Part shown: positions 12,975-28,737 of the stretch, piece by piece
Layout: the number at the start of each line of letters is the position of its first letter
How positions within the stretch are numbered: the stretch's first letter is position 1
Made by a program: the position numbers and the translations under genes
NCBI GenBank assembly: GCA_016868315.1
Contig: VGHE01000009.1
Span: 1 to 64,000 of the forward strand
Source of the DNA: Betaproteobacteria bacterium
GTDB taxonomy: Bacteria; Bdellovibrionota_B; Oligoflexia; Silvanigrellales; Silvanigrellaceae
Reading direction: 5' to 3'
DNA length: 64,000 nucleotides
Notes under the pieces: generated by a model
Seen by the model: the letters and a program-made list of their open reading frames with translations, nothing else
What the model was told of the DNA's origin: nothing
Database searches by the model: none

Positions 12975-15900
12975 ATGACGGGACGAATCAGAGAAGACCA
13001 AGCTCACTGGAGCAAATTGATCTTTCACAGCTGGATTGGCCCACTTTTACGAGTGGGCCATTTGCGTCCCATCACGCTCGATGACCTCCACCCGCAACCA
13101 CCACTTGAAGACTGCCTCGAAACCACCTCGCCCCTCTTCCGCGCGGCCTACCGCGGCAAGGTGCTGGCAGCACTACTGGCTGCTTTCCGCCCCCGATTTG
13201 TGCGCATCTTTTGGTTTTTGAGCACTTTGACCGCCTTGGGGTTATTGCGACCACTGCTTCTGCGTGAACTCATCCAACGCTTCAGTCCGGGCGAAGGAGT
13301 GCAGGCACAAAGCTTTTTGGCCTGGATAGAAACTCCGTTGGGCATGGCCTGCTTTGCTGTCAGTTGTTTTGTGCTGCTTGGCTTTGTTCGTTCGCATTTC
13401 CTGCGCCACTGTTTCAAGCTCACCTGGTCTATGCCAGGTTTGTTAAGGCATGAAGTTTATCAACGCCTGCTCCATCTCAAGTCAGCTCAACGCAATCAGC
13501 TCACAGCAGGCGAATACGTTAACCTGGCCACACGTGACTGTGACTCGACCTCCATGCTGCCCTTTCTGCTCGAACCACTGCTCTACCCGGTCACGATCGC
13601 TTTGTATTGCATCATGCTCGTCTCGTTTTTAGGTCCCTGGGCACTGTTAGCTGTCGTTGCTCTCGCTGCAGTTGTGCCTTTGGGACGCCGCCTGGAGCGA
13701 CGCATGAGTGATCTTGCGTCACGGGTGCGTGAGCACTCACGCATTCGACTCGGAATTCTCAGCGAAATTCTGACAGGAATCCGGATCATCAAGTTTCATG
13801 CATGGGAGGAGCGCTTCTCCAAAAAAGTACTCGTTGTGCGTGGCAAAGAGGTTGCTCTGATGCGCGAGCGAGCGCGCGTGGCTGCCCGCCACAGCGCACT
13901 CACAGCACTTCTGCCTATTCTGACGGGTGCAACGGTTGTCACTTTGGTGTCGTGGTTTACAGGAGTGCCCTCAACCGCCGACGTTTTTGCATCGTTTAGC
14001 GTGATTACTGCACTCGTCGGAATTTTCAGTGAAATTCCGGATCATCTGCAAAGCGCCACAGAAATCCGGGTGAGTCTCGACCGCATAGGGCGTTTTCTTG
14101 GTGAAGGAAGCAACACTTCAGAAGAGCCCCTGCTACCCAACACAAATTCCACGCAGTTAAACCTGCGCAACGCGACATTTATTCGCCCGGTTGCAGCCAA
14201 TACGCAGAGCCAAAGCCCTGCATTGCTGGGTATCAACTTGAGCCTCGACAAAGGAAACTGTGTGGCGGTTGTCGGCAGCATTGGGGCGGGAAAATCCACT
14301 CTACTGAGCGCATTATTGAGTGAGCTCACACTCACTGCGGGGGATGCACAACTCCCCCATCCCGTTTGTTTTGCGCCACAAATTCCTTGGAATCAAAACG
14401 CTTCCGTCAAAGACAACATCGTCTTTCAGCTCCCTTTTGATTCAGAGCTTTTCAGTCGTGTTGTGCATGGAGCAGCGCTCCAAGATGACCTCGACAGATG
14501 GCCTGCAGGCCTCGAGACCGAAGTTGGCGAGCGTGGAATCAACCTATCGGGTGGCCAGAAGCAACGCCTTGCCTTGGCGCGCACAGCCTATGCGAGTCTC
14601 CAGCAAGGTGTGGAAACGATAATTTGGGATGACCCATTCAGTGCACTCGATGAATCCGTTGCAAGTCACGTTTTTCAGACACTCCTCCAGAAAGAGCTAA
14701 TGGGACGCACGCGGATATTCTGCACGCACCGCATCGATTTTGCTTTGCGCGCAGACTGGGTTGTTGTGATGGAGGCGGGAAGGATTGTTGAACAAGGCGA
14801 ACCTGCTCAACTGTTGCAGCTTCAGGGCTCGTTTGCACGCTTGCACGGACTGCACATAAAAACACGTGGCGAGGAGCTCGTTGCGCACTCCTCAAGTGCC
14901 GAGTTGGCTCCAAACTCTGAAACTTCTACGCGCAGTGTTTCGGGCAAGCTCACAACCGACGAGCAAATCACTCTCCCCGTGTTCAATAAAATAGCCCTCA
15001 AAATTTATTCTAAGGCACTCGCCCCAGCACTTGGACTCCTTGGCGTTGGGTTTGTGTTCCTTCTCCCCCGCCTAACCGACATCGCATCGAACCTCTGGCT
15101 CGGGCATTGGACGTCGCACCCGTCCCAGGTTGCCATCACGACTGCCGTGGTCGTTTTCGCGCTTCTAACCTTTGTGACTGTTGTGGCCGAGCGCACGCGC
15201 TCAGTGGTACTCTTCGATGGTGGAGTTAAGGCGGGAACACGTTTATTTGAGAATTTACTCTCTGGCGTGATGCATGCCCCGATGCGCTTTTTCGATACTT
15301 CGCCCCAGGGAAGAATTCTCAACCGGTTCACCTCTGACACCAGCGCAGTCGACAACTCCATGCCTTCCTCGGTAGGCCAATTCCTGACCTCGCTCATTGG
15401 GATTTTCGCCTCCCTGCTTCCGGTGATTTGGAGTCAGCCGCCCACATTGATTCTCTTCCTTCCTGCGCTTGTTCTCTACGTTTGGCTATTTAAATGGGTA
15501 CGCAAAGCGCAGTTGCGCCTTAATGCACTCTCTCAGGTGGTGCGCAGCCCCTGGATGTCGCTCACAGCTGAAACACTCCCTGGGCTTTCCGTCGTGCAAT
15601 CACTCCAAGCTCAGCCACGCTTTCTTTCCCACTACACGAAGCTCATCAATCGTCACATCGCAACGGGTTTCTACACCATTGCAACCAACCTCTGGTTCGC
15701 CTTTCGTCTTGAGATGCTGGGAGTAGCGCTGGTGGGTGGATTTGTTTTACTGCTCGCTCTTAACCCAGGGCAGACTTCCCCCATGTTAACCGCCGTCGGA
15801 CTCACCTTCAGCCTTCAAATGATTGGTATTCTTGGGGGCGTTGCACGGAGCCTGCGGATGCTGGAGAACAATTTGGTCTCGGTGGATCGGGTGTTGGAAT

Positions 15901-16634
15901 ATGCGCAGCTCGCTCCCGAAAAAGAAGAGCAGGTTGCTCAAACACCTGCACGTTGGCCAACGCGAGGCGAAATACGGTTCAACAACCTGACCGCTGCGTA
16001 TGCAGAGCATCTGAGTCCCGTATTGCGGAACATCTCGAGAACTATTCCTGCGCAAAAGAAGGTCGGTATTGTGGGGCGAACAGGAAGCGGCAAGAGCAGC
16101 TTGTTTCTTGCCATCACCCGCATCATACCGGTGCCGCTCAATATGATTTTTATTGATGAAGTGGACATTGCAACAGTTCCGCTGAAGGAGCTGCGCCGTG
16201 CGATTGCTATCATTCCTCAAGACCCTGTGCTTTTTTCTGGTTCCCTAAGAGAGAATCTCGATCCGTTTTCACTCTACCCCGATGCAGACATCGGAACCGC
16301 TCTGAAGCGAGCGCATCTGCTCCACCTCTGTCCTTCCGCCACTGCTGCTGCAGACTTTAAAATAGAAGAAAACGGCCGGAATTTAAGTGTGGGCGAAAGG
16401 CAATTGGTTTGTCTTGCGCGTGCATTGCTTGCAAAATGCCGGATTCTTCTCATCGATGAGGCAACAGCCAATGTCGATGTGCGAACCGATGCTCTGATTC
16501 AACAAACCCTGCGCGAAGAGTTTGCCGACTGCACCCAATTGGTCATCGCACACCGCACGAACACATTGGTAGATTGCGACTTTCTCATCCGACTCGACCA
16601 CGGGCAAATTCAAACGAGTGAGCGCCTTAACTGA
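12975..16634 (+). CDS. full-length ABC exporter of the ABCC/MRP type
   Basis: The 1219-residue single chain is TMD1-NBD1-TMD2-NBD2. It opens with an MRP-like linker (SWIGPLLRVGHLRPITLDDL) and then about six hydrophobic segments. NBD1 has Walker A GSIGAGKS (~433), signature LSGGQKQR (~523) and a Walker B with Asp after Asp (IIWDDP, ~549), so the usual catalytic Glu is absent. TMD2 carries the MRP-type motif FFDTSPQGRILNRFTSD. NBD2 has Walker A GRTGSGKSS (~1034), signature LSVGERQ (~1136) and Walker B ILLIDEATANVD (~1157). The NBD asymmetry and motif wording match eukaryotic ABCC proteins (MRP, CFTR, Ycf1) without TMD0. Substrate unknown; organic-anion or conjugate export is the family norm. 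No clear Shine-Dalgarno precedes the ATG, which lies 12 bp after the lipoprotein gene. Confidence 0.88.
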   Translation: MTGRIREDQAHWSKLIFHSWIGPLLRVGHLRPITLDDLHPQPPLEDCLETTSPLFRAAYRGKVLAALLAAFRPRFVRIFWFLSTLTALGLLRPLLLRELIQRFSPGEGVQAQSFLAWIETPLGMACFAVSCFVLLGFVRSHFLRHCFKLTWSMPGLLRHEVYQRLLHLKSAQRNQLTAGEYVNLATRDCDSTSMLPFLLEPLLYPVTIALYCIMLVSFLGPWALLAVVALAAVVPLGRRLERRMSDLASRVREHSRIRLGILSEILTGIRIIKFHAWEERFSKKVLVVRGKEVALMRERARVAARHSALTALLPILTGATVVTLVSWFTGVPSTADVFASFSVITALVGIFSEIPDHLQSATEIRVSLDRIGRFLGEGSNTSEEPLLPNTNSTQLNLRNATFIRPVAANTQSQSPALLGINLSLDKGNCVAVVGSIGAGKSTLLSALLSELTLTAGDAQLPHPVCFAPQIPWNQNASVKDNIVFQLPFDSELFSRVVHGAALQDDLDRWPAGLETEVGERGINLSGGQKQRLALARTAYASLQQGVETIIWDDPFSALDESVASHVFQTLLQKELMGRTRIFCTHRIDFALRADWVVVMEAGRIVEQGEPAQLLQLQGSFARLHGLHIKTRGEELVAHSSSAELAPNSETSTRSVSGKLTTDEQITLPVFNKIALKIYSKALAPALGLLGVGFVFLLPRLTDIASNLWLGHWTSHPSQVAITTAVVVFALLTFVTVVAERTRSVVLFDGGVKAGTRLFENLLSGVMHAPMRFFDTSPQGRILNRFTSDTSAVDNSMPSSVGQFLTSLIGIFASLLPVIWSQPPTLILFLPALVLYVWLFKWVRKAQLRLNALSQVVRSPWMSLTAETLPGLSVVQSLQAQPRFLSHYTKLINRHIATGFYTIATNLWFAFRLEMLGVALVGGFVLLLALNPGQTSPMLTAVGLTFSLQMIGILGGVARSLRMLENNLVSVDRVLEYAQLAPEKEEQVAQTPARWPTRGEIRFNNLTAAYAEHLSPVLRNISRTIPAQKKVGIVGRTGSGKSSLFLAITRIIPVPLNMIFIDEVDIATVPLKELRRAIAIIPQDPVLFSGSLRENLDPFSLYPDADIGTALKRAHLLHLCPSATAAADFKIEENGRNLSVGERQLVCLARALLAKCRILLIDEATANVDVRTDALIQQTLREEFADCTQLVIAHRTNTLVDCDFLIRLDHGQIQTSERLN

Positions 16635-18294: not shown

Positions 18295-19281
18295 TCACTT
18301 CACTTCAACCGCGCTACCACGGGTGAATTCCCAGCGTCCTGAAGCAACATTGAGACCACCCACGCGAACAAAATAGTTGCCGGGAGTCACTCCGCTCAGA
18401 GCCACCTGTTTCTTGTTGGTAGAGAAGGAAAAGGTAATACTGCCAAAGTTTTGCTCGCCAGCGAATTCCAGACGGTAATGAGCCGCTTCGCCGTCGGCAC
18501 TCCACTGCAACGTATCTGTAGCTGCGATGGAGGCACCAACCTGCATACCGATGTTGAGCTTCGGAGCTGGGCTAATCGCAATTTCATTTGATTCTGTTTT
18601 GCCTGACACACGCCAGTAGACCTTACCTGCGGGAGGGTTTGGAATACGCAGCTGCCCTGCAGCGTTGGTGGTACCGGTCATGTACATAACCGAAAAATCC
18701 TGCATGCGAGAGACTTCAATCGCCGTGCCTGCAGGGGCGGAAACGAGCGGCCCTCCACCTTTTTCATTGTAGGCGTAAGTCGCAGAGGCCGAGGGCGCGG
18801 GAGCAGAAACCAGCTCCTCTTCTTCACCTTCTTCTTCCTCATCGAACTCTTCTTCTTTATCAACATCTGCAAACTCAGTGTCAGTTGCACCCACAGCTTT
18901 AGAGGCTTCGTCTTTCTTCTCGCCTGCTTGGCCAGCAGCATCCGGTGCCGGAGTCGTTGCAATCGTCGGTGTTTCGGTCGAAATCGCGCTATCTCCGAAC
19001 ACGAAATAATAGACACTCGACACAACGATTGTGGCCGATACACCTAGGATGAGGCCCATCATTATCTTGCGGCGCTTGTCATCGCCACCCATGCCACCAT
19101 CGCGGAAAATCTGGCTCACAGCGTTCGTGCCGCCACCAAATCCGCTCGAAAATTCTCCACCCGTTCCTTGTGCCGATTGAGACTTGGGCGCACCTCCGGC
19201 AGAACCTCCGAAGGTACCGTTGGCAGAGCCGAAGCCGGTGTCGAACTGGGAGCTGTTATTCTGTTCATCTTTACGTGCCAT
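18295..19281 (-). CDS. single-pass membrane protein with Gly-rich N-terminus and acidic linker
   Basis: The 328-residue protein begins with a Gly/Ser/Asn-rich cytoplasmic region (~1-65), then a basic KRRK and one membrane helix (MGLILGVSATIVVSSVYYFV, ~75-95), then an acidic linker (EEEFDEEEEGEEEE) and a C-terminal half (~170-328) of beta-rich sequence. The C-terminal part (LQWSADGEAAHYRLEFAG) resembles Ig/fibronectin-like or FecR-C-terminal-type repeats that contact periplasmic surfaces. No catalytic motif is seen. Topology is probably type II (C-terminus outside). A terminator follows it. Function unknown; a structural envelope role is a guess. Confidence 0.75.
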   Translation of the reverse strand: MARKDEQNNSSQFDTGFGSANGTFGGSAGGAPKSQSAQGTGGEFSSGFGGGTNAVSQIFRDGGMGGDDKRRKIMMGLILGVSATIVVSSVYYFVFGDSAISTETPTIATTPAPDAAGQAGEKKDEASKAVGATDTEFADVDKEEEFDEEEEGEEEELVSAPAPSASATYAYNEKGGGPLVSAPAGTAIEVSRMQDFSVMYMTGTTNAAGQLRIPNPPAGKVYWRVSGKTESNEIAISPAPKLNIGMQVGASIAATDTLQWSADGEAAHYRLEFAGEQNFGSITFSFSTNKKQVALSGVTPGNYFVRVGGLNVASGRWEFTRGSAVEVK

Positions 19282-19471: not shown

Positions 19472-21214
19472 TCAAGAAAACTGTTTACTGAGAAGGAGTT
19501 CTATTGTGCTACGTGGCTTCAGAACAAGCCCGTGCTTGGCGAATTTATGAACGAGAGAGTCATATTGAGCCAAAATCTGCTGCACAGCTCCGCGGTAGCC
19601 CATCTCGGCAAGCTCCGTACGAATGCGATAGCGCATCGGGTTGCCGGCCATCGCCTCCATCACCTCATCGGTGGGGCGGAAAACCACAAAATCGACATCA
19701 GGATTCACATCCATGCTGTGCTTGAGCATCGATGAAAAACGAGTTTGCACAAGGCTCTTGATTGCCTGAACTGCGGTGAAATAACCGCCATGTCGCATCA
19801 CTGCGCCAGGGAAATTACTCGTGTAGGCAACCATTGGGTCAATCATCAGAATAAGCCCCGCGCCTTTGCGGATGGCCGTGTTGAAATCCGAAGAACTGGT
19901 CAACTGCCCGTCAGCAAACCAGTGCCCATTCACCCGCTCAGGAAGATAGAACGGCGGCAGTGCAGTGCTTGCACGAATGGCTTGGCTGATTTTGATATTC
20001 CGCCAAGGCTCCTCGCCAAAGACAACATGTTCTCCGGTGTCTTGGTCGGTTGCACTGATATAAAGTTCTTTGGAAAGCGCACTGATGTTGTCAGGAATTC
20101 CAAGACGCGAGAGTTGCCTTTCAATAAAGGCCTTGAGGCGCTCACCACGGAAGAAGCCTACGGGCACGAGACGTTGCAGTCGCACAACCACTTCACCTGG
20201 ATCAAGTGTCGAGAGCATCCGCAGCACGCCCACAATCCGGCTCACGATTTCCCCACCAGCCAAATCGAAAATAACATTCAGAGACAACGGGTCGAGTTTG
20301 CCATGACGCTTATAAAGTTGCTTGAGAATATCGTGCGAATGTGTTCCAGCTGCCAAAAACGATGCCAAAATGGCACCTGATGACACCCCACAAAAAATAT
20401 CGAACTGGTTGCATGCACTTCCGTCCATGGCATCGTCGAGCGCATTGGTGACGCCAATCGCGTAAATGTAACCTTCAAGCCCGCCGCCAGAAATACACAG
20501 ACTTTTTTTTTGCTGCGACATGCGGAACTCGTAGAGCTGACGAATTGCAAACAAAAAAAGCTGCGCTGAACTTGCCGGATCGGTGATCACGCCGCGCACA
20601 TTCGCAAGACCCAAATTAAAAGAGCGCGTCTGGTTGTCTTCGCTGGAAGGCAAAACAACAAGGATGCGTCGGGTTGGATAGTGATAGCCGCGTGGCGAAA
20701 AACTTGTGAGCGCACTGCGAAAGTCTTCAAAGAGTGGTGGCTTGTTCGAGCCATTGTTTGGCTCGTTCTGTTGAACGCTGTGCAAAACCTCTGCGGACGA
20801 TGAAGACTGGTCGCCATTATCGAGGGAACTTTCCCCAGCTAACTTCTGCGCTGCATCTGAAGCACGACGCTTCGAGGTTTTTTGATGCACACCAGGAATT
20901 TTAGGAAGTTGAACGCGCTCATCGAGAATAATCAAATCGGGTTCGAGGTGTGCAATGTTGTGAGCGACTTGAAAAATATCAGAGCAGAAGAAGATAGTGG
21001 CCGGCGCCTGCATCTCATGACCGGCGATAAACGACGGCAAGCGCCTTGCGAGTGCTTTGCTGAGAACGAAAGCTTCGCCCTGCCCTTGGAGCCCCGGCTC
21101 TGGTTGGATGCCCACACGACGAAAGTCGGCCGACAACTGAGCGAGCACGGCCTGGGTGCCCAAATAGACAACCCGAAATCCTCGCGCACGTTGATCGTTC
21201 TGTTCAGCCGTCAT
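19472..21214 (-). CDS. patatin-like phospholipase with degenerate receiver-like N-terminal region
   Basis: Residues ~237-580 form a patatin domain: oxyanion-hole GGGLEG (~243-248), nucleophile motif GVSSG with Ser278, and dyad aspartate in DGQ (~435). Patatins are acyl hydrolases acting on phospholipids or other acyl lipids. Residues 1-235 are unusual: RVVYLGTQAVLAQL...EPDLIILDE (~93-99) and a second RRILVVLPS block (~182-190) both look like degenerate response-regulator or Rossmann-like folds, joined by a low-complexity linker (~110-160). The nucleophile and dyad are intact, so hydrolase activity is likely. It has no signal peptide. It lies 41 bp downstream of mevalonate kinase on the same strand and is likely part of that operon. 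Confidence 0.85.
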   Translation of the reverse strand: MTAEQNDQRARGFRVVYLGTQAVLAQLSADFRRVGIQPEPGLQGQGEAFVLSKALARRLPSFIAGHEMQAPATIFFCSDIFQVAHNIAHLEPDLIILDERVQLPKIPGVHQKTSKRRASDAAQKLAGESSLDNGDQSSSSAEVLHSVQQNEPNNGSNKPPLFEDFRSALTSFSPRGYHYPTRRILVVLPSSEDNQTRSFNLGLANVRGVITDPASSAQLFLFAIRQLYEFRMSQQKKSLCISGGGLEGYIYAIGVTNALDDAMDGSACNQFDIFCGVSSGAILASFLAAGTHSHDILKQLYKRHGKLDPLSLNVIFDLAGGEIVSRIVGVLRMLSTLDPGEVVVRLQRLVPVGFFRGERLKAFIERQLSRLGIPDNISALSKELYISATDQDTGEHVVFGEEPWRNIKISQAIRASTALPPFYLPERVNGHWFADGQLTSSSDFNTAIRKGAGLILMIDPMVAYTSNFPGAVMRHGGYFTAVQAIKSLVQTRFSSMLKHSMDVNPDVDFVVFRPTDEVMEAMAGNPMRYRIRTELAEMGYRGAVQQILAQYDSLVHKFAKHGLVLKPRSTIELLLSKQFS

Positions 21215-21255
21215 GGTGTGCCCCCCCGGAACTCAAAGCGAATCGAATCCAGAGT

Positions 21256-22263
21256 CTATGGATTTTCGTCCGCGCGCACAAATGTCAGATAATGTGGGTA
21301 TTCTTTCCATGCAGTCGAGAACGGAATGGGGGGTGAAGAGGCAAAAATCCCCAACGCTAAACCACCTCCACCGCCCCCCGTCAGCTTCGCTCCCAGGGCG
21401 CCGCACTTGCGCAGCTCAGCTACGCAGGCGTCGAGTTTTTGTGTTGAGACCTGCAAAGATTGCAGCGCCATGTGCGCCGCATTGAGGCTTTCGCCCAGTC
21501 CCAAGAGATCTCCTCTCTCCAGGGAAGCAATAACGCGCTCCGACAACTCACCAATCAACATAAAAGTAGATTCGACACTTTCACGCTGAGTCTCCCGCAA
21601 ATGCGCGACCTTTTGCACCATGGTGCGCGTCGGCGTGCGTTCACGGGTATCAATGAGTAACAACCAAAATCCTTTGCCGTTGCGCACAGAGCGTGAGCCC
21701 TGCTCGCGAACAAAACGAATGATTCCATCGGCCACAACCGTCGCTGCATCGAGACCGCTGGCACGACCATGAAAAAAACCATCGAGACGGTTTGCAAACA
21801 GTGAAATTTCGGCAGACGACCGCGCCTGTCCCAGTGTACGGGCAAGAGCCCTAAGCAAAGCAGCACTCAATGCGGCAGACCCACCCATTCCTGCGCCCAA
21901 CGGCAACTGCGAAAGGATTTCAATCTTCTGTGGTTCATACTTTTCGAGAAGATGTTCATTGTCTTCTTGATTAAGTAACAGACGCAAACCCAAATCGAGA
22001 GATTGAGTTAGCCGAAGCCTCTCCTCTAATGGCAACTGAACCAGCGTGTCTGCCATCGTCAGGCTCCAGACCTGCTGCCAGTGGTCGATTGCGTTCGCGG
22101 CGGCTGTTCCCTCTGGTGCCAGACGCTCACCGAATCTTACCGTTAGGGTTTGCGAACGGAGTGGCAGCGCTACGGCTGGGAAGCCCGCAACGGCAGCGTG
22201 TTCCCCAATCAAAATCGCCTTACCACAAGCAAGGCCTTCGGTTCCCGGTTCAGCGAGAAGCAT
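21256..22263 (-). CDS. mvk: mevalonate kinase
   Basis: GHMP-family kinase phosphorylating mevalonate to 5-phosphomevalonate. The 335-residue product has the N-terminal GKAILIGEHAAV motif (~14-25), the ATP-binding loop LPLGAGMGGSAALS (~118-131), DGFFHGRASGLDAATV with the catalytic Asp, and the C-terminal LTGGGGGG motif. These spell mevalonate kinase rather than the other GHMP members upstream. The start overlaps the end of mvaD by 14 bp, implying translational coupling. It is the last core pathway gene in the operon. Confidence 0.92.
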   Translation of the reverse strand: MLLAEPGTEGLACGKAILIGEHAAVAGFPAVALPLRSQTLTVRFGERLAPEGTAAANAIDHWQQVWSLTMADTLVQLPLEERLRLTQSLDLGLRLLLNQEDNEHLLEKYEPQKIEILSQLPLGAGMGGSAALSAALLRALARTLGQARSSAEISLFANRLDGFFHGRASGLDAATVVADGIIRFVREQGSRSVRNGKGFWLLLIDTRERTPTRTMVQKVAHLRETQRESVESTFMLIGELSERVIASLERGDLLGLGESLNAAHMALQSLQVSTQKLDACVAELRKCGALGAKLTGGGGGGLALGIFASSPPIPFSTAWKEYPHYLTFVRADENP

Positions 22264-23530
22264 CGAGGTCTCCCTCCGCGAAGAAAACCGCTGCCTCTGC
22301 GAGAGGCAATTGTTTCAGAGATGAATGATAAGGCTCCTGGCGCAAGGCAGCTCGGAGGCCATGCGTTTCGCCTATTTCGATGGATTGCCCCTGGGTGTTT
22401 CCCCACAGCAACTGCGCTCCAGAGAAGCTCCCCTGCTGCGCAAGCTGAGTCAGGTAGCTTTGCATGTGCTGAGCCGCATCGGGCAGAAATAAAAAATGAG
22501 GATTGGCGCCCGCATCGAGCGTCCAAAGCATATTCGCAGCATGCGCATCCCTGTAGGTCACGAAGTGTGCAATAGCCTGAGAGGTCTTTCTGCTCATATA
22601 TTCGAGTTTGGTTGCGCCAGAGAGCATTACAGCGTGCATTTCAAAAGCATCGAGCTCGCTCAGACGCTGCACTGTGCGAAAGTCGCCTTCAGCAAGTGCG
22701 GTTCTAAATTCTTGCAGTCTACGCGGATAATGAGCCAAGCGGATATCTTGAAGGACACTCGTCTGTGCCAACACATGCCCCTCTGAACTCCCAACGGATT
22801 TTTCTGACGAATCAAGAACCAATACGCAATGCTGCATCTGTGCAAAGTTTGGATGCGTGGCAAGAGACATGGTTGCAGAGGAATCTCCACGTTCAGCCAA
22901 CTCCCAAACCACATACTGCGATGATTCGGGCGCCTGAGCAAAAACTGCTGAACGTGTCGCAGAACCACTTCCTATACGCGCCCATTCTGTCAGCCAAAAT
23001 TGAAGGTCGGCTTCGCTCAAAAACCGTTTGAGGTTCAGAAGATCGGCCACTGCTGCGGCCAACGCTGCGTACCCAGCCGCACTTGAGGCAACCCCACAGG
23101 CCGTTGGAAAATTATTCACACTCTCGACCCGAACTGCAATTTCATCGGCGAAACCATGGAGGATAGACTTAAGAAAGCCCTCCATTTTTGCAGGCATTGC
23201 AGCTTCGCTCGCATTCAGCATCAACGAAAAGTGAGGACGTTCCGCGAATGAAGGAGACTGGCCATCCTTTAACGGAACAAAACGCCCGCGAACGGTCAAC
23301 CGTGTATAAGCACGAAAGGCATTCAAGGTCAGGCTCACACTCGAGTTCATCGGAAGTTGGTGCAATCCGTTTTTCTTGCCCCAGTATTTGAGCAAAGCGA
23401 TGTTGCTCGGCGCACTGCTCCAGCCTTCATCTCCGGATTGCAGTAAAAGTTCACCGCGCTGCCGTGCGTGCAGAAGACGCTCAGATAGGGCTGCTAGCCG
23501 CGGATTCTGACGAAAAATATTTTCATTCAT
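22250..23530 (-). CDS. mvaD: diphosphomevalonate decarboxylase
   Basis: ATP-dependent enzyme making isopentenyl diphosphate from mevalonate 5-diphosphate. Diagnostic motifs are SAPSNIALLKYWGK (~41-54), LPMNSSVSLTL and NNFPTACGVASSAAGYAAL. At 426 residues it is longer than many family members (about 330-400) because of an N-terminal extension of ~35 residues and a longer C-terminus. The start shares an ATGA overlap with the upstream phosphomevalonate kinase gene, and its end overlaps mvk by 14 bp. The phosphomevalonate decarboxylase variant is unlikely given the nearby phosphomevalonate kinase. Confidence 0.93.
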   Translation of the reverse strand: MNENIFRQNPRLAALSERLLHARQRGELLLQSGDEGWSSAPSNIALLKYWGKKNGLHQLPMNSSVSLTLNAFRAYTRLTVRGRFVPLKDGQSPSFAERPHFSLMLNASEAAMPAKMEGFLKSILHGFADEIAVRVESVNNFPTACGVASSAAGYAALAAAVADLLNLKRFLSEADLQFWLTEWARIGSGSATRSAVFAQAPESSQYVVWELAERGDSSATMSLATHPNFAQMQHCVLVLDSSEKSVGSSEGHVLAQTSVLQDIRLAHYPRRLQEFRTALAEGDFRTVQRLSELDAFEMHAVMLSGATKLEYMSRKTSQAIAHFVTYRDAHAANMLWTLDAGANPHFLFLPDAAQHMQSYLTQLAQQGSFSGAQLLWGNTQGQSIEIGETHGLRAALRQEPYHSSLKQLPLAEAAVFFAEGDLDASR

Positions 23531-24591
23531 TGTTCTTCCTCAAATGCGAAGCTAACTTTCATTCGTGAAGCTGAAATCTGAGCTATGATTGCATCAATCT
23601 CTGACCGTGTTGCCATGACCCAAAGACAATCACCATGTCCTGCACCCATCGTCTTCCATGGAATTTCAGCGCGCTCACATGCAGCTACGAAATTCTGGAT
23701 TTCAGAGGTCTGAGGAAGCAGATCGGCTCGCAGTGCAAGGGCAGCTGCTTCGCGGCACAATTGCGCGGCGCGCAGAGAGGTCGGGTCTTGCAAAAATTGC
23801 CGCGCTAATGCTGTTTGTGCCTCAAAAAATCGTTCCGGAAGTTCTTTCCGAAGGGTGTTTTTCAAAACAGAACGGGTGTCAGAACGCACCCCCGTTTCCA
23901 CAAAGCATCCGAGCCGACGCAGCTCAGTTTGACCAATGGAGAGCGAAGAGATTTCAGGCTCAAAGCTATTCAAATTCAGAGCAGATGAATATCCCTTGTT
24001 CTTAAACTGCAGAACTCTGGCATGCGACTGCGTAGGAAAATGCAATGCTGACCACACTTGAACAGCAACATCATATCCGCTCCCACGTCCTTGAAGCCGC
24101 AGAAGTGAATCGAATAGGCGCTGCCAATATTTATCGATACCAACCTGCGCCATTCCAGACTGTGCAAAAAATTGTTCGGCCAGGGCAATGTGGAAGCAGG
24201 CCAACAACGCCGATGAACTTCCAAAACCCAAACTGGGAGAAAAACTGGCGACCACCTCGGCAGCCACTGAAACCCCAACCAGATGCGCTCGGAAGCCTGA
24301 AAGGTAACAGGCGAAATTCCGACGTTCGTCATTTGTTTCGAGAGCAAGGAATTCTTCAATTTGATTCGATTTAAGATGAATGGATCCCGATAAAAAGTCA
24401 CTCGCAAACTGGTGCGAAGCATCTTCTTCGCCAGAGGCGAAGGAAAAATCCAACGCCATGCGAAACTCAGGCAAGGTGACAACCACCGCATCACCGCCAC
24501 GCATCACGCCGTACTCACCAAAAAGCAAAGCTTTACCGGGAACAGAGATCGCCCGTAAACGGTTATGGTTCTTTTGCTGAATCGGTTCCAC
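23527..24591 (-). CDS. phosphomevalonate kinase (GHMP family)
   Basis: The 354-residue GHMP kinase has SVPGKALLFGEYGVM (~16-30), SPSLGFGSSSALL (ATP loop) and GRGSGYDVAVQ, the last typical of phosphomevalonate kinases, plus a C-terminal MGAGHGDC loop. It would convert 5-phosphomevalonate to the diphosphate, completing the classical route with mvk and mvaD in the same operon. The start is GTG 24591, 29 bp inside the end of HMG-CoA reductase; the ribosome-binding site is weak, so coupling to upstream translation is likely. Assignment to phosphomevalonate rather than another small molecule rests on motifs and context. Confidence 0.85.
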   Translation of the reverse strand: MEPIQQKNHNRLRAISVPGKALLFGEYGVMRGGDAVVVTLPEFRMALDFSFASGEEDASHQFASDFLSGSIHLKSNQIEEFLALETNDERRNFACYLSGFRAHLVGVSVAAEVVASFSPSLGFGSSSALLACFHIALAEQFFAQSGMAQVGIDKYWQRLFDSLLRLQGRGSGYDVAVQVWSALHFPTQSHARVLQFKNKGYSSALNLNSFEPEISSLSIGQTELRRLGCFVETGVRSDTRSVLKNTLRKELPERFFEAQTALARQFLQDPTSLRAAQLCREAAALALRADLLPQTSEIQNFVAACERAEIPWKTMGAGHGDCLWVMATRSEIDAIIAQISASRMKVSFAFEEEQ

Positions 24592-25906
24592 GTGCCACCG
24601 CCGTCAACGAGGGCATGTGATCATAGCGCCTCAGCATTTCGATGTTCTTCTCATGAAGCGCCATATGTCCGCGCTGAATTCCCTCGCAGGCCAAGGCGCG
24701 CAGAGCCGACAAATTCTGTGCCAAACCAACGCTCGCGATCAAACCGGAGAGTACGCCTGCTTCTGGATGGCCAAGCAAGGAGAGCGTCGACTGCACTGCA
24801 GGATGCAAACGTGTGACACCACCGACCGTGCCCACCGCCACCGGCACGGCAATCTCACCCACAAGCTGACCCTCTTCACCTTTGATCCAACGCGTCAGAG
24901 GTTTGTATTGGCCACTCATCGCTGCAAAGGCGTGAGCACCAGCTTCTACAGCGCGCCAGTCGTTCCCGGTGGCAATAACCACAGGGTCAATACCGTTCAT
25001 GATGCCCTTGTTGTGAGTCGCTGCACGATATGGATCGAGCTCGGCAAATTCCCATGCTTCAACGATCCGATCGACTGCTTCTGCACCGGTGAAGCCACCT
25101 ATTTCGAGAGTCTTGCTGTCCACCTCGCAACGCACACGCGTGATTCGGTGCACGGTTAGATTGGTGAGAATCTTCAGTCCAACGCGGCAAGGAATTGAGC
25201 TGGGCAACCAACGACCAATGTCTTCGGCGATCGTGTTGACGATGTTTGCGCCCATGGCCTCGCGCGTATCCACGTGCACATGAATGACGAAAACTCCAGG
25301 CTTGGGCAAAATACGGATCTCGACTCCTACTGTTCCACCGCCTCGGCTCAGCAAGCGAGGATGACACGCATTGGCCCGGTCGATGAGCTCAGCCCGAACG
25401 GATTCAAACCAACCAGGAACCCGCGCGGCATCTTCACTCTGGACTGTGAACTGGATTTGGCTGGTTGCAATCGATTTGGTGGGAGAGGTGAAAAAACCTC
25501 CGCGCGAGCGCGCGAGCTTCGCGCCATGACTCGCTGCAGCAACAACACTCGATTCTTCCACGGCCATTGGAATGAGATACTCACGACCGTCGATGAGAAA
25601 GTTTGTAGCCACTCCGAGCGGGAGGGCGAATGCACCGATGCAGTTTTCGATAAAGGTATCGGCGAGATCTTGAGAAAGATTCTCGGCACTAAAGAGCGCC
25701 CCTGCAGCATCTCGGGATAGAAAACCTCTTTCGACAAGCGCAGTAAGCCGCGCCTTAACGCTCATCTGTGCAAATCCAGAGATGCGACTCGACCGCGCAG
25801 CGGGGGCGTTTTTGACCTCTTCCCGCAATCCGCTTTCTACTCCATGCGCCAATACACAGGCGGACGTTTCGTTCGAAGCAACAATATTCAAATCGGAAGT
25901 TGTCAT
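24563..25906 (-). CDS. mvaA: hydroxymethylglutaryl-CoA reductase, class II
   Basis: Reduces HMG-CoA to mevalonate and commits carbon to isoprenoids. The 447-residue protein lacks a membrane anchor, as in bacterial class II enzymes. Motifs visible are ENCIGAFALPLGVATNF (~87-103), MAVEESSVVAAAS with the catalytic Glu (~117), TREAMGANIVNT, and ATHNKGIMNGIDPV with the catalytic Lys. An N-terminal stretch of ~40 residues before SSRISGF is not conserved-looking. The ATG overlaps the idi2 stop as ATGA. HMG-CoA synthase, which would supply the substrate, is not in the window. Confidence 0.95.
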   Translation of the reverse strand: MTTSDLNIVASNETSACVLAHGVESGLREEVKNAPAARSSRISGFAQMSVKARLTALVERGFLSRDAAGALFSAENLSQDLADTFIENCIGAFALPLGVATNFLIDGREYLIPMAVEESSVVAAASHGAKLARSRGGFFTSPTKSIATSQIQFTVQSEDAARVPGWFESVRAELIDRANACHPRLLSRGGGTVGVEIRILPKPGVFVIHVHVDTREAMGANIVNTIAEDIGRWLPSSIPCRVGLKILTNLTVHRITRVRCEVDSKTLEIGGFTGAEAVDRIVEAWEFAELDPYRAATHNKGIMNGIDPVVIATGNDWRAVEAGAHAFAAMSGQYKPLTRWIKGEEGQLVGEIAVPVAVGTVGGVTRLHPAVQSTLSLLGHPEAGVLSGLIASVGLAQNLSALRALACEGIQRGHMALHEKNIEMLRRYDHMPSLTAVARGTDSAKEP

Positions 25907-26997
25907 TGTTGACCCCTGAGTCTGAGACGAGAGGAGAGCTCATCGATTTTCTGAGCACCCGAACAGTACATTGCGATGCGCAGAGAACGAGTGAAGAATT
26001 GCATTTCTTGTTCGAGAGAATCTTCAGGCGATATGCCGTCGGAGGGATTCACCACCGCCCTAAAAAACGGAAGTCCGATACCGCACATCTGTGCTCCCAA
26101 GGCCAGTAGAACTGCGGCCTGCGCACCATCACGGATGCCACCGGTGGCCACCACCGCGCGCTCGGGTGCGACACCAAAAACCTTTGCCACCGGAACGCAT
26201 TCACGCACGGAATCAAGCGTAGACAAACCCCAGTTGCGAAAAAGTTCACCAAGGCGGTGTGTCAGCACATCACCCCGCTTGCCCTCAATAACACTCCAGC
26301 TTGTTCCGCCATTGCCACCCACATCAACTGCGGCAACACCGACCGAGAACAGACGCCGCGCGGTTTCAGCGGTCATACCAGAGCCAACTTCCTTGACAAT
26401 CACAGGTACGGGAAGGCGCTTCACCAGTTGCTCAATGTGAGGAAGCAAGCGGTCAAAGTTGCGTTCGCCTTCGGGCTGTATCTGCTCCTGCAAAGCATTC
26501 AAGTGAACCGCACATGCGTTGAGTTCGAGCTGCTCGGTCATGCGCACAACGGCATCAACTGCAACTCCGTAATTAAAGCTCACTGCACCTATATTGCCCA
26601 TGAGAAAAACACGCGGCGCGACTTTGCGCACATCGAACAGACGCCTGCTCGCAGGATCGCTAAGCATCAATTTCTGGGATCCCAACCCCATGGGAATATT
26701 CCAGCGCTCAGCAAGCAATGCGAGCGTTTCATTGATGCGTTGTCCCTCGCGCACACCTCCGGTCATGCCGGTGATCAGAAATGGCCACGAAAAAGTTCGA
26801 CCGAGAAACGGACGTCGGGTGTCGAGTGAATCTGGAGAGAACTCAGGCAGCGCTTCGGGCGCAAGAAAAAACTCAGTTCCTGCAACCGCACGCGACTCAA
26901 CATTCTGAGTCCGGCAGATATCGATGTGATGTTGCTTGCGCTCCGCAGCACGGTCGGGGGTGTCTTTGATGGCGGCCGACTCAAACGGATGCATCAC
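25903..26997 (-). CDS. fni: type 2 isopentenyl-diphosphate delta-isomerase (FMN-dependent)
   Basis: Interconverts IPP and DMAPP with FMN, reduced cofactor and Mg2+. The 364-residue TIM-barrel protein has ERKQHHIDI near the start (~19-27), TGMTGG flavin-site motif, MGLGSQKLML, HLNALQEQIQPEGER, VIVKEVGSGMT, and DVGGNGGTSW. These are specific to type 2 enzymes and distinct from the Nudix type 1. The start is GTG 26997 (GGAG 8 nt upstream) or the adjoining ATG 26994. It is the first gene of the operon idi2-mvaA-pmk-mvaD-mvk-patatin. Confidence 0.94.
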   Translation of the reverse strand: MMHPFESAAIKDTPDRAAERKQHHIDICRTQNVESRAVAGTEFFLAPEALPEFSPDSLDTRRPFLGRTFSWPFLITGMTGGVREGQRINETLALLAERWNIPMGLGSQKLMLSDPASRRLFDVRKVAPRVFLMGNIGAVSFNYGVAVDAVVRMTEQLELNACAVHLNALQEQIQPEGERNFDRLLPHIEQLVKRLPVPVIVKEVGSGMTAETARRLFSVGVAAVDVGGNGGTSWSVIEGKRGDVLTHRLGELFRNWGLSTLDSVRECVPVAKVFGVAPERAVVATGGIRDGAQAAVLLALGAQMCGIGLPFFRAVVNPSDGISPEDSLEQEMQFFTRSLRIAMYCSGAQKIDELSSRLRLRGQQ

Positions 26998-27201: not shown

Positions 27202-28737
27202 ATGAAAAAATCCAATCATCATGGCAGCCTCACTCCAGCACTGGCGACCATCTGCGCGGCCGCAGTTTTGGGGCTGTCTGCCTGCAAGGATGCACCCACC
27301 GAGACCGACCCCTCTCAAGAACAGGTGTACGGACCACGCATAGGAACAGTTTTGCGCCTGGCAGGTGAACTTGGAGTCAAAGAGCGCCACTTGATGGCTG
27401 CTGGCTACGTGGGCGGCTATTTTGGACTCACCGATGGGCAGAAACACCAGGCCTGGCTGGGTGAGTCTGCGCGCAGTTCTTCACTTGGGCTCGATTTACG
27501 CCGTGCAGCGGAGCTTCAATCGCTCAACTTTCGAGGGCAAATGGACATCCTAGCCAAAGACATTCAGCTGCGCGCTGAGCGTCAACAGCCTCTCAATGAT
27601 TTCGACTGGTTAACTCTCATCGCACAGGCCGTTGTGGGTGATTTTGAGCCCGACCCCAACATTTCCGCAATGCAGATCCGCATGGTTCTCATGGAACTCA
27701 TTGAAGCGCATAATTCGGGTTTCAGCGCGTCACTCAACGATAAAGAGGTTTATACTCTCCGTCCCGCGGGAGACGACGAGCGAATTGATCTCCGCCTGCT
27801 CGACCCCGGTCAACTCCGTCTCCTCAACGGCTCGCGGTTTCAAAGTGACGGTCTGGCGGACATGGTGGTTGAAGGCAATGTAAAAGCGCGCGTCGGTGGA
27901 CTGCGCGCACCAGGCAAAATGCCTAAACTTGTGCTTCGCCTCTGCCCCTCCACCGCATTGCGTTGCTTCGAAGCGATGAGAAAAACGAGCACGCTCGGAG
28001 CTCACTTCCTCTCCTACCGCACCATGAACGGCAACCGTGAAACAATCCAATTCCACGACCACAAGCAAGAATTGGTTTGGAATGACGAAGTCCAGAAAGA
28101 CACCATCACGCTCATGATTGCAGGAATGACAGGCATCACCCGAGAAACGTTGCGTCCAGATCTGTTCGACTGGGAAGACTACGTCGCTCTGCGTAGCTTC
28201 GTGCGCCGCGCGGCAGGACGCGTGACCGAAGGACTCAACAACGACAATCCAATTGCAGCACAACGTGATTTTATCCGCACGCAAATAGCCGAAACTCTCG
28301 GTGTCATCGACGAGAACGCGCAGCGGCCTAATTTCGCGCTCGGTGCCACATGGGATTCAGCGCTGTTCCGGGAACTTCTTAACAGCGAGCTGCTGCCAAA
28401 GCAGCTCAGCCAAGTCAAAATCGAGCAGCCTCTGCACGGGCAAAGTCTTGCCGGAACCGTGATTGAAGGCGTTGTGTATCCCGACGCGGAAAGTGGGCAA
28501 ATTCAAATTTACCAAGATGCGTCTGAGCCCAATGCCGATGGTTCCACTTGGGATCTTGTCCTTAAGCGTGATCTCGATCCGCGCCAAAGACGCTTCGATT
28601 TCACCCATGAAATCCGCCGCAGCGGATTGAACGGCAACCAGATGCGCGCTCTTAAAGTGGTCAATCGTAAATCCGACGGAACCCTACTCGGCGCTCGCAT
28701 CATTCGACTGCGTATGGAAGGCATTGCACGCCCCTGA
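27202..28737 (+). CDS. lipoprotein of unknown function, 511 aa
   Basis: The signal peptide ends in a lipobox (GLSAC, Cys ~28), so the mature protein is lipid-anchored on the outer face of the inner membrane or at the outer membrane. The remainder mixes helices (residues ~45-180) with a C-terminal beta-rich part (~410-511) that resembles an Ig-like or carbohydrate-binding sandwich (GTVIEGVVYPDAESGQIQIYQD). No catalytic motif was recognised. AGGAAAGGG lies upstream of ATG 27202. It is divergent from the mevalonate operon. A palindrome sits 5 bp after its stop codon. Confidence 0.8.
   Translation: MKKSNHHGSLTPALATICAAAVLGLSACKDAPTETDPSQEQVYGPRIGTVLRLAGELGVKERHLMAAGYVGGYFGLTDGQKHQAWLGESARSSSLGLDLRRAAELQSLNFRGQMDILAKDIQLRAERQQPLNDFDWLTLIAQAVVGDFEPDPNISAMQIRMVLMELIEAHNSGFSASLNDKEVYTLRPAGDDERIDLRLLDPGQLRLLNGSRFQSDGLADMVVEGNVKARVGGLRAPGKMPKLVLRLCPSTALRCFEAMRKTSTLGAHFLSYRTMNGNRETIQFHDHKQELVWNDEVQKDTITLMIAGMTGITRETLRPDLFDWEDYVALRSFVRRAAGRVTEGLNNDNPIAAQRDFIRTQIAETLGVIDENAQRPNFALGATWDSALFRELLNSELLPKQLSQVKIEQPLHGQSLAGTVIEGVVYPDAESGQIQIYQDASEPNADGSTWDLVLKRDLDPRQRRFDFTHEIRRSGLNGNQMRALKVVNRKSDGTLLGARIIRLRMEGIARP

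Follow-up and report, generated by a model that had tools for sequence, protein, structure and literature searches.

We found that a minus-strand gene in the window, which is the whole 64,000-nucleotide stretch of DNA that we analyzed, encodes a patatin-type lipase fused to an N-terminal pseudo-receiver (PsR) (Table 1). This fusion architecture has good support and has been conserved in two bacterial phyla. Our main reading, to which we give a probability of roughly 0.6, is that the gene specifies a patatin-type phospholipase of the cytoplasm and that a GlnR-like PsR would control it without phosphotransfer, by dimerization or by the binding of a partner or ligand. The phospholipase may be gated by a signal, as a sequence-only reading of this DNA had suggested.

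TABLE 1 Features of the fusion gene and its neighbors in the window
Feature	Position	Strand	Basis
PsR-patatin fusion protein, 580 aa	19472..21214	-	ORF, PF01734, full-length orthologues
Predicted PsR, first half, residues 12-100: β1, α1, extra β-hairpin, β2, α2, β3 (receiver numbering), ending D98-E99-R100	20915..21181	-	AlphaFold2 and hhalign
D98-E99-R100: receiver phosphoacceptor Asp position and D+2 Arg	20915..20923	-	57 aligned N-termini
Inserted linker, predicted disordered, residues about 101-160	20735..20914	-	pLDDT, alignment gap, pN
Predicted PsR, second half, residues 161-234: α3, β4, α4, β5, α5 (receiver numbering), entering first patatin strand at 236	20513..20734	-	pLDDT, invariant residues
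Patatin catalytic domain, residues 239-446	19877..20500	-	PF01734, invariant catalytic residues, Foldseek CapV/PlpD/patatin
Patatin nucleophile S278	20381-20383	-
Patatin D435	19910-19912	-
C-terminal extension, residues 447-580, conserved, mostly helical, no Pfam model	19475..19876	-	Congener identity and model
328-aa downstream gene	18295..19281	-	tblastn, clustering
Mevalonate kinase (mvk)	21256..22263	-	TIGR00549, E = 4.2e-60, above cutoff
Diphosphomevalonate decarboxylase	22250-23530	-	Pfam; order kept in relatives
Phosphomevalonate kinase-like GHMP kinase	23527-24591	-	Order kept in relatives
HMG-CoA reductase	24563-25906	-	Pfam; order kept in relatives
Type 2 IPP isomerase-like FMN enzyme	25903-26997	-	Pfam; order kept in relatives

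A patatin domain with intact catalytic residues

The open reading frame begins with ATG, and PF01734 matched its patatin domain at E = 1.9e-26 (93.9 bits against a gathering cutoff of 27.7). The best PDB matches of the patatin fold in Foldseek were CapV, PlpD, and patatin (best E = 1.5e-14). Across 21 aligned homologues, the nucleophile S278 (GVSSG), D435 (DGQ), and the glycine-rich oxyanion loop at G243-G244 were invariant, which bears out the sequence-only reading that the catalytic residues are intact. Judged by these residues, the protein is probably a working patatin-type acyl hydrolase. No signal peptide or membrane segment was evident by eye in the fusion protein, and it is most likely a cytoplasmic phospholipase. 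In the C-terminal extension, residues 461 to 580 were 88 to 92% identical between congeners. The protein was the sole patatin detected in the 3.2-Mb assembly, which is 94.8% complete.

An insertion splits a single N-terminal domain

We modeled the window protein with AlphaFold2 from an input alignment of 21 rows. Before the linker, the model has a strand at residues 13 to 18, a helix at 21 to 33, a hairpin at 38 to 51, a strand at 72 to 77, a helix at 80 to 90, and a strand at 94 to 98. After the linker, helices at 162 to 172, 194 to 203, and 216 to 233 alternate with strands at 184 to 188 and 208 to 211, and the first patatin strand follows at 236. The pLDDT was about 80 to 93 in the first half, except for a low-confidence loop at 51 to 67, and about 79 to 93 in the second half, while residues 111 to 150 of the linker scored 33 to 38 and are predicted to be disordered.

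We aligned full-length or near-full-length homologues from 20 related genomes. The linker is a gap in 12 Oligoflexia homologues (Oligoflexales, Pseudobacteriovorax, and kin), and the insertion is restricted to Silvanigrellales, most members of which carry it at variable length after “PDLIILDER”; it is short in one genus (L028). The other Oligoflexia have a compact N-terminus of about 165 amino acids (e.g., LLYVAS...DLLIYDER...SRVVAIL...AFELGR..VRDVYVAP). When the N-terminus of a compact relative was modeled alone, the mean pLDDT was 92.6 and the pTM was 0.87. In this model and that of the window protein, the order of secondary-structure elements fits a receiver with one extra hairpin, although fold comparison favors small GTPases (see below). 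Residues P174, R183, and L201 in the second half were invariant in the homologue alignment.

The sequence-only reading had placed two receiver-like segments, EPDLIILDE and RRILVVLPS, on either side of a low-complexity linker. Both are present, at residues 91 to 99 and 182 to 190, and the linker is real and also predicted to be disordered. However, because the compact homologues lack the insertion and fold as one continuous domain, the two segments correspond to β3 and β4 in receiver numbering within a single domain, and two separate receiver segments are ruled out. The description of a degenerate receiver fused to patatin is supported, but with one such domain and not two. Structure prediction had been proposed as the check on this region, with the lack of a fold or of conservation among homologues to count against it; the N-terminus was predicted to be folded and was conserved.

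Comparison between congeners gave a pN of 0.47 to 0.58 for the linker, 0.13 to 0.22 for the domain halves, and 0.04 to 0.07 for patatin. We used pN and pS and dropped dN/dS ratios because synonymous sites were saturated. Both halves of the PsR are under purifying selection, and the linker evolves freely.

Profile comparisons assign the domain to receivers

Sequence searches did not name the N-terminal domain. PF00072 did not match the window protein; among 25 N-termini, a single one gave its best E value, 0.084. The N-terminal profile also had no match when searched against PDB sequences. When the compact domain was compared with the PDB by Foldseek, the 50 listed matches were all small GTPases or other proteins or complexes with a G domain (best E = 1.9e-6), with TM-scores of 0.41 to 0.58 and an rmsd of about 5 to 7 Å. 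Since the Pfam and PDB sequence searches found nothing usable and Foldseek listed small GTPases, we turned to profile-profile comparison.

With hhalign, 30 N-termini matched 24 receivers from the window’s genome at a probability of 94% (score, 47.3; E = 1.4e-7, an E value that is for a single comparison and is to be weighed against the controls), and D98 paired with the phosphoacceptor Asp. Among the controls, neither reversed receivers nor the 30 unrelated families exceeded 1.2%, and GTPase profiles (Arf-like, FeoB/Era/Der-type, and pooled) reached at most 0.6%; the domain matched none of about 35 control comparisons. By subset, the probability of the receiver match was 42% for Silvanigrellales, 79% for other Oligoflexia, 43% for two deltaproteobacterial sequences, and 91.6% for 27 sequences of the Myxococcales-containing phylum, and all sets combined gave 94.6%, with one sequence (L057, identical to L190) common to two sets.

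Foldseek ranks GTPases first because the antiparallel hairpin after α1 mimics β2-β3 of Ras. In the compact-relative model, the β1-α1 connection is 1 to 2 residues, and the P-loop GxxxxGK[ST] is therefore absent. Fold comparison alone favors GTPases; on the profile evidence, the N-terminus is a receiver-homologous domain with a decorating hairpin.

One receiver active-site residue is kept

We took a census of the former active site in 57 aligned N-termini, 56 of them distinct. Asp occupies the phosphoacceptor position in 55/57 and Glu in 2/57, and the D+2 position is Arg in 56/57, while only 4 of the 24 receivers in the window’s genome have Arg there. The former acidic pair (DD) is mostly A, G, S, or T and is non-acidic in nearly all rows (Asp in 4/57 at one position), with a hydroxyl residue, Ser or Thr, at one of its positions in 31/57. 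The Lys position holds Lys in 4/57, and the receiver Thr/Ser position is variable and mostly neither. R183 and G202 are kept in 54/57 and 53/57, respectively.

In the window protein, the lost positions are occupied by G19 and T20 (acidic pair), P189 (Thr/Ser), and D212 (Lys), so that Asp alone is kept from the canonical quintet of acidic pair, Asp, Thr/Ser, and Lys. By these residues, the domain is a PsR that lacks what normal Mg2+-dependent phosphotransfer requires. With four of the five active-site residues lost, a phosphorylation-gated lipase is unlikely.

Conservation and gene neighborhoods

Using the alignment as the query, we found the fusion protein in 48 of the 58 genomes searched from the window’s phylum and in 35 of the 39 high-quality ones, almost always as one copy and mostly matching the full profile. 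A sample of 284 genomes from a second phylum (Deltaproteobacteria, Myxococcales; it holds loci L057 and L070) yielded a related patatin at E ≤ 1e-20 in 137. Here, 29 matches in 28 genomes extend into the N-terminal domain, and the D-x-R motif is present in nearly every extractable N-terminus. The same architecture, for which a search had been suggested, thus recurs in dozens of genomes, and since it is found across both phyla, we take the fusion to be old and widely retained. The patatin tree separates 9 rows of Silvanigrellales from 12 of other Oligoflexia with support of 100/100, with no resolved order within the family.

In the window, patatin is the last gene of a minus-strand mevalonate (MVA) run. 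Its distance from the mvk stop is exactly the 41 bp (21215-21255) reported in the sequence-only reading, and the corresponding gaps in two congeners measure 41 and 42 bp. We found no predicted promoter or terminator site in this gap; promoter counts were no higher than in shuffles, so the scan is uninformative on a separate transcript. The GHMP protein of the operon (23527-24591, minus strand) changes much more quickly than the other products of the operon: it is 49% and 40% identical to those of the congeners, compared to 80% and 74% identity for HMG-CoA reductase. It also falls below the Pfam and NCBIfam cutoffs. Beside the operon, and conserved there in three genera of the family (G001/G002, G003, and G005), is a divergent gene for a 511-aa protein that belongs to no known Pfam family (27202-28737, plus strand). 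Elsewhere in the window, a 1,219-aa open reading frame (12975-16634, plus strand) looks by eye like a full-length transporter with two ABC cassettes, similar to the ABCC/MRP proteins of eukaryotes.

The adjacency of MVA genes and patatin was seen only in the window’s genus (3 genomes) and in one further genus of the family (G005). A third case is possible in G003, where the MVA operon stops close to the edge of its contig and patatin begins another contig. In the Silvanigrella, Fluviispira, and Spirobacillus relatives, the genes ahead of patatin are a cluster of the fliG-fliI type and one for an RlmL-like methyltransferase, and the full MVA operon is present hundreds of kilobases away (in G011, at 2.58 versus 3.02 Mb). 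In other Oligoflexia families, patatin lies after a DsbD-like gene and before SfsA and GST. This order is widely kept in loci L032 to L039, and in several loci the DsbD-like gene and patatin overlap by a few bases at stop and start. The mevalonate link is lineage-specific, and the proposal that lipid hydrolysis is tied to isoprenoid supply is not supported.

The 328-aa gene adjoins patatin downstream in the Silvanigrellales loci that could be read past patatin, whatever the upstream operon, with the diverged MAG L029 as the exception. Its product has acidic stretches of low complexity and probably one membrane segment, and it gave no Pfam or NCBIfam match above cutoff. Directly upstream of patatin in two deltaproteobacterial loci (L057:6289-7605 and L066:6404-7738) is an EAL-domain gene. 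This suggests a possible c-di-GMP link, although a pair of loci is a slender basis for it.

Discussion

The closest parallel to the window domain is in the GlnR-type PsRs, atypical response regulators of actinomycetes with a receiver fold, which the window domain probably shares. They likewise keep the Asp but have lost the phosphorylation pocket. In GlnR, unphosphorylated Asp-50 forms bonds with Arg-52 and Thr-9 and contributes to dimerization (PMC10704036, PMC12632262). The D50-x-R52 of GlnR parallels D98-x-R100, a motif found in 55 to 56 of the 57 rows, and T9 parallels the Ser/Thr at the former DD position (T20 in the window). By this analogy, the Asp98-Arg100 contact and a phosphorylation-independent dimer may be shared with GlnR. 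The two differ in that the window domain has the extra β-hairpin after α1 and is too diverged in sequence for PF00072, and in that the output of GlnR is a DNA-binding domain rather than a patatin lipase. Phosphorylation-independent control by a PsR is also known from ShkA, CikA, and KaiA, whose outputs are kinases or clock proteins (PMC12632262).

In the mechanism that we propose, unphosphorylated Asp98 would be held by Arg100, as in GlnR, and perhaps also by T20 at the old acidic-pair position. Because Asp98 would be held in this way, the PsR would sit in a fixed “on-like” state. The α4-β5-α5 face would be the acting surface, with the last helix predicted to run straight into patatin. As a dimerization, partner-binding, or ligand-binding module, the PsR would then control assembly of the lipase or substrate access to it. 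Expression would follow the host operon of the gene, which is the MVA operon in the window’s genus.

The N-terminal domain could instead be a structural or assembly cap that serves folding, dimerization, or localization of the lipase and receives no signal. It is always fused and co-conserved where found, no recurrent sensor gene lies near patatin, and PsRs are often constitutive dimers (PMC12632262). Yet the near-invariant D-x-R suggests that the former active site has a specific role, though possibly a purely structural one, and we hold the cap to be possible but doubtful. It is unlikely that the protein is a low-efficiency but real response regulator, in which a cognate kinase phosphorylates D98 and thereby switches the lipase. 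Phosphorylation is not always abolished by loss of DD, T, or K (PMC12632262), and D98 itself is kept, but the other active-site positions have diverged nearly throughout, and no histidine kinase was recognized among the recurrent neighbors whose sequences were examined. After the Foldseek result, we seriously weighed a degenerate small-GTPase-like domain, in which case the lipase would carry its own counterpart of the GTPases that activate patatins such as VipD, whose activator is Rab5 (PMC12871566). The G-domain matches and the Ras-like hairpin are consistent with this pseudo-GTPase, but the missing P-loop and the profile-profile controls rule against it, as do the low TM-scores and large rmsd, and we consider it improbable.

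Two further readings involve the MVA operon. The PsR might be a ligand sensor (e.g., of an isoprenoid quinone or lipid) that directly opens or closes the lipase and was secondarily recruited to the operon in which the ligand is made. The PsRs of CikA and KaiA bind quinones, and that of ShkA binds c-di-GMP (PMC12632262). We think this very unlikely for the fusion protein; if true, the protein would be a one-component, phosphorylation-free membrane-lipid sensor-effector. Alternatively, as a dedicated member of the MVA system, the lipase would remodel membrane lipid as the supply of isoprenoids changes. Its near-constant spacing behind mvk in the three congeners and its place next to mvk in the second genus fit such a role, but synteny speaks against the coupling, since linkage to MVA genes is not conserved in the fli-rlmL and dsbD-sfsA/GST settings described above, and there is hardly any chance that it is correct.

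Among known patatins, the fusion protein shares its catalytic fold with the CBASS effectors CapV and CapE and with PlpD. It scored 43 bits against a cutoff of 200 for the CBASS_lipase model and has another kind of N-terminal domain, and no cyclase was recognized among the recurrent neighbors of patatin. It was likewise below cutoff for the NCBIfam DS2 anti-phage lipase model (39.4 versus 400 bits) and for the RssA model (21.6 versus 272 bits). Enterobacteria have a gene pair of RssA, a patatin, and RssB, a receiver protein. There, patatin and a receiver-type protein are paired as separate genes, while here, they form one polypeptide. The patatin activity of VipD also depends on a second protein module, a separate host GTPase (PMC12871566), whereas the module of the fusion protein is fused and has no GTPase motifs.

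We found no description of a patatin fused to a receiver or PsR in the open-access literature. A 2025 review of PsRs names no phospholipase or patatin output and treats the switching mode of PsRs as an open question (PMC12632262). The fusion protein thus joins a PsR type that Pfam misses to an output absent from that review. Its recognition corrects an annotation gap, the N-terminal domain having no Pfam model. In a large conserved family that joins one type of PsR to an easily assayed enzyme, control by a PsR could be tested through enzyme activity rather than transcription reporters.
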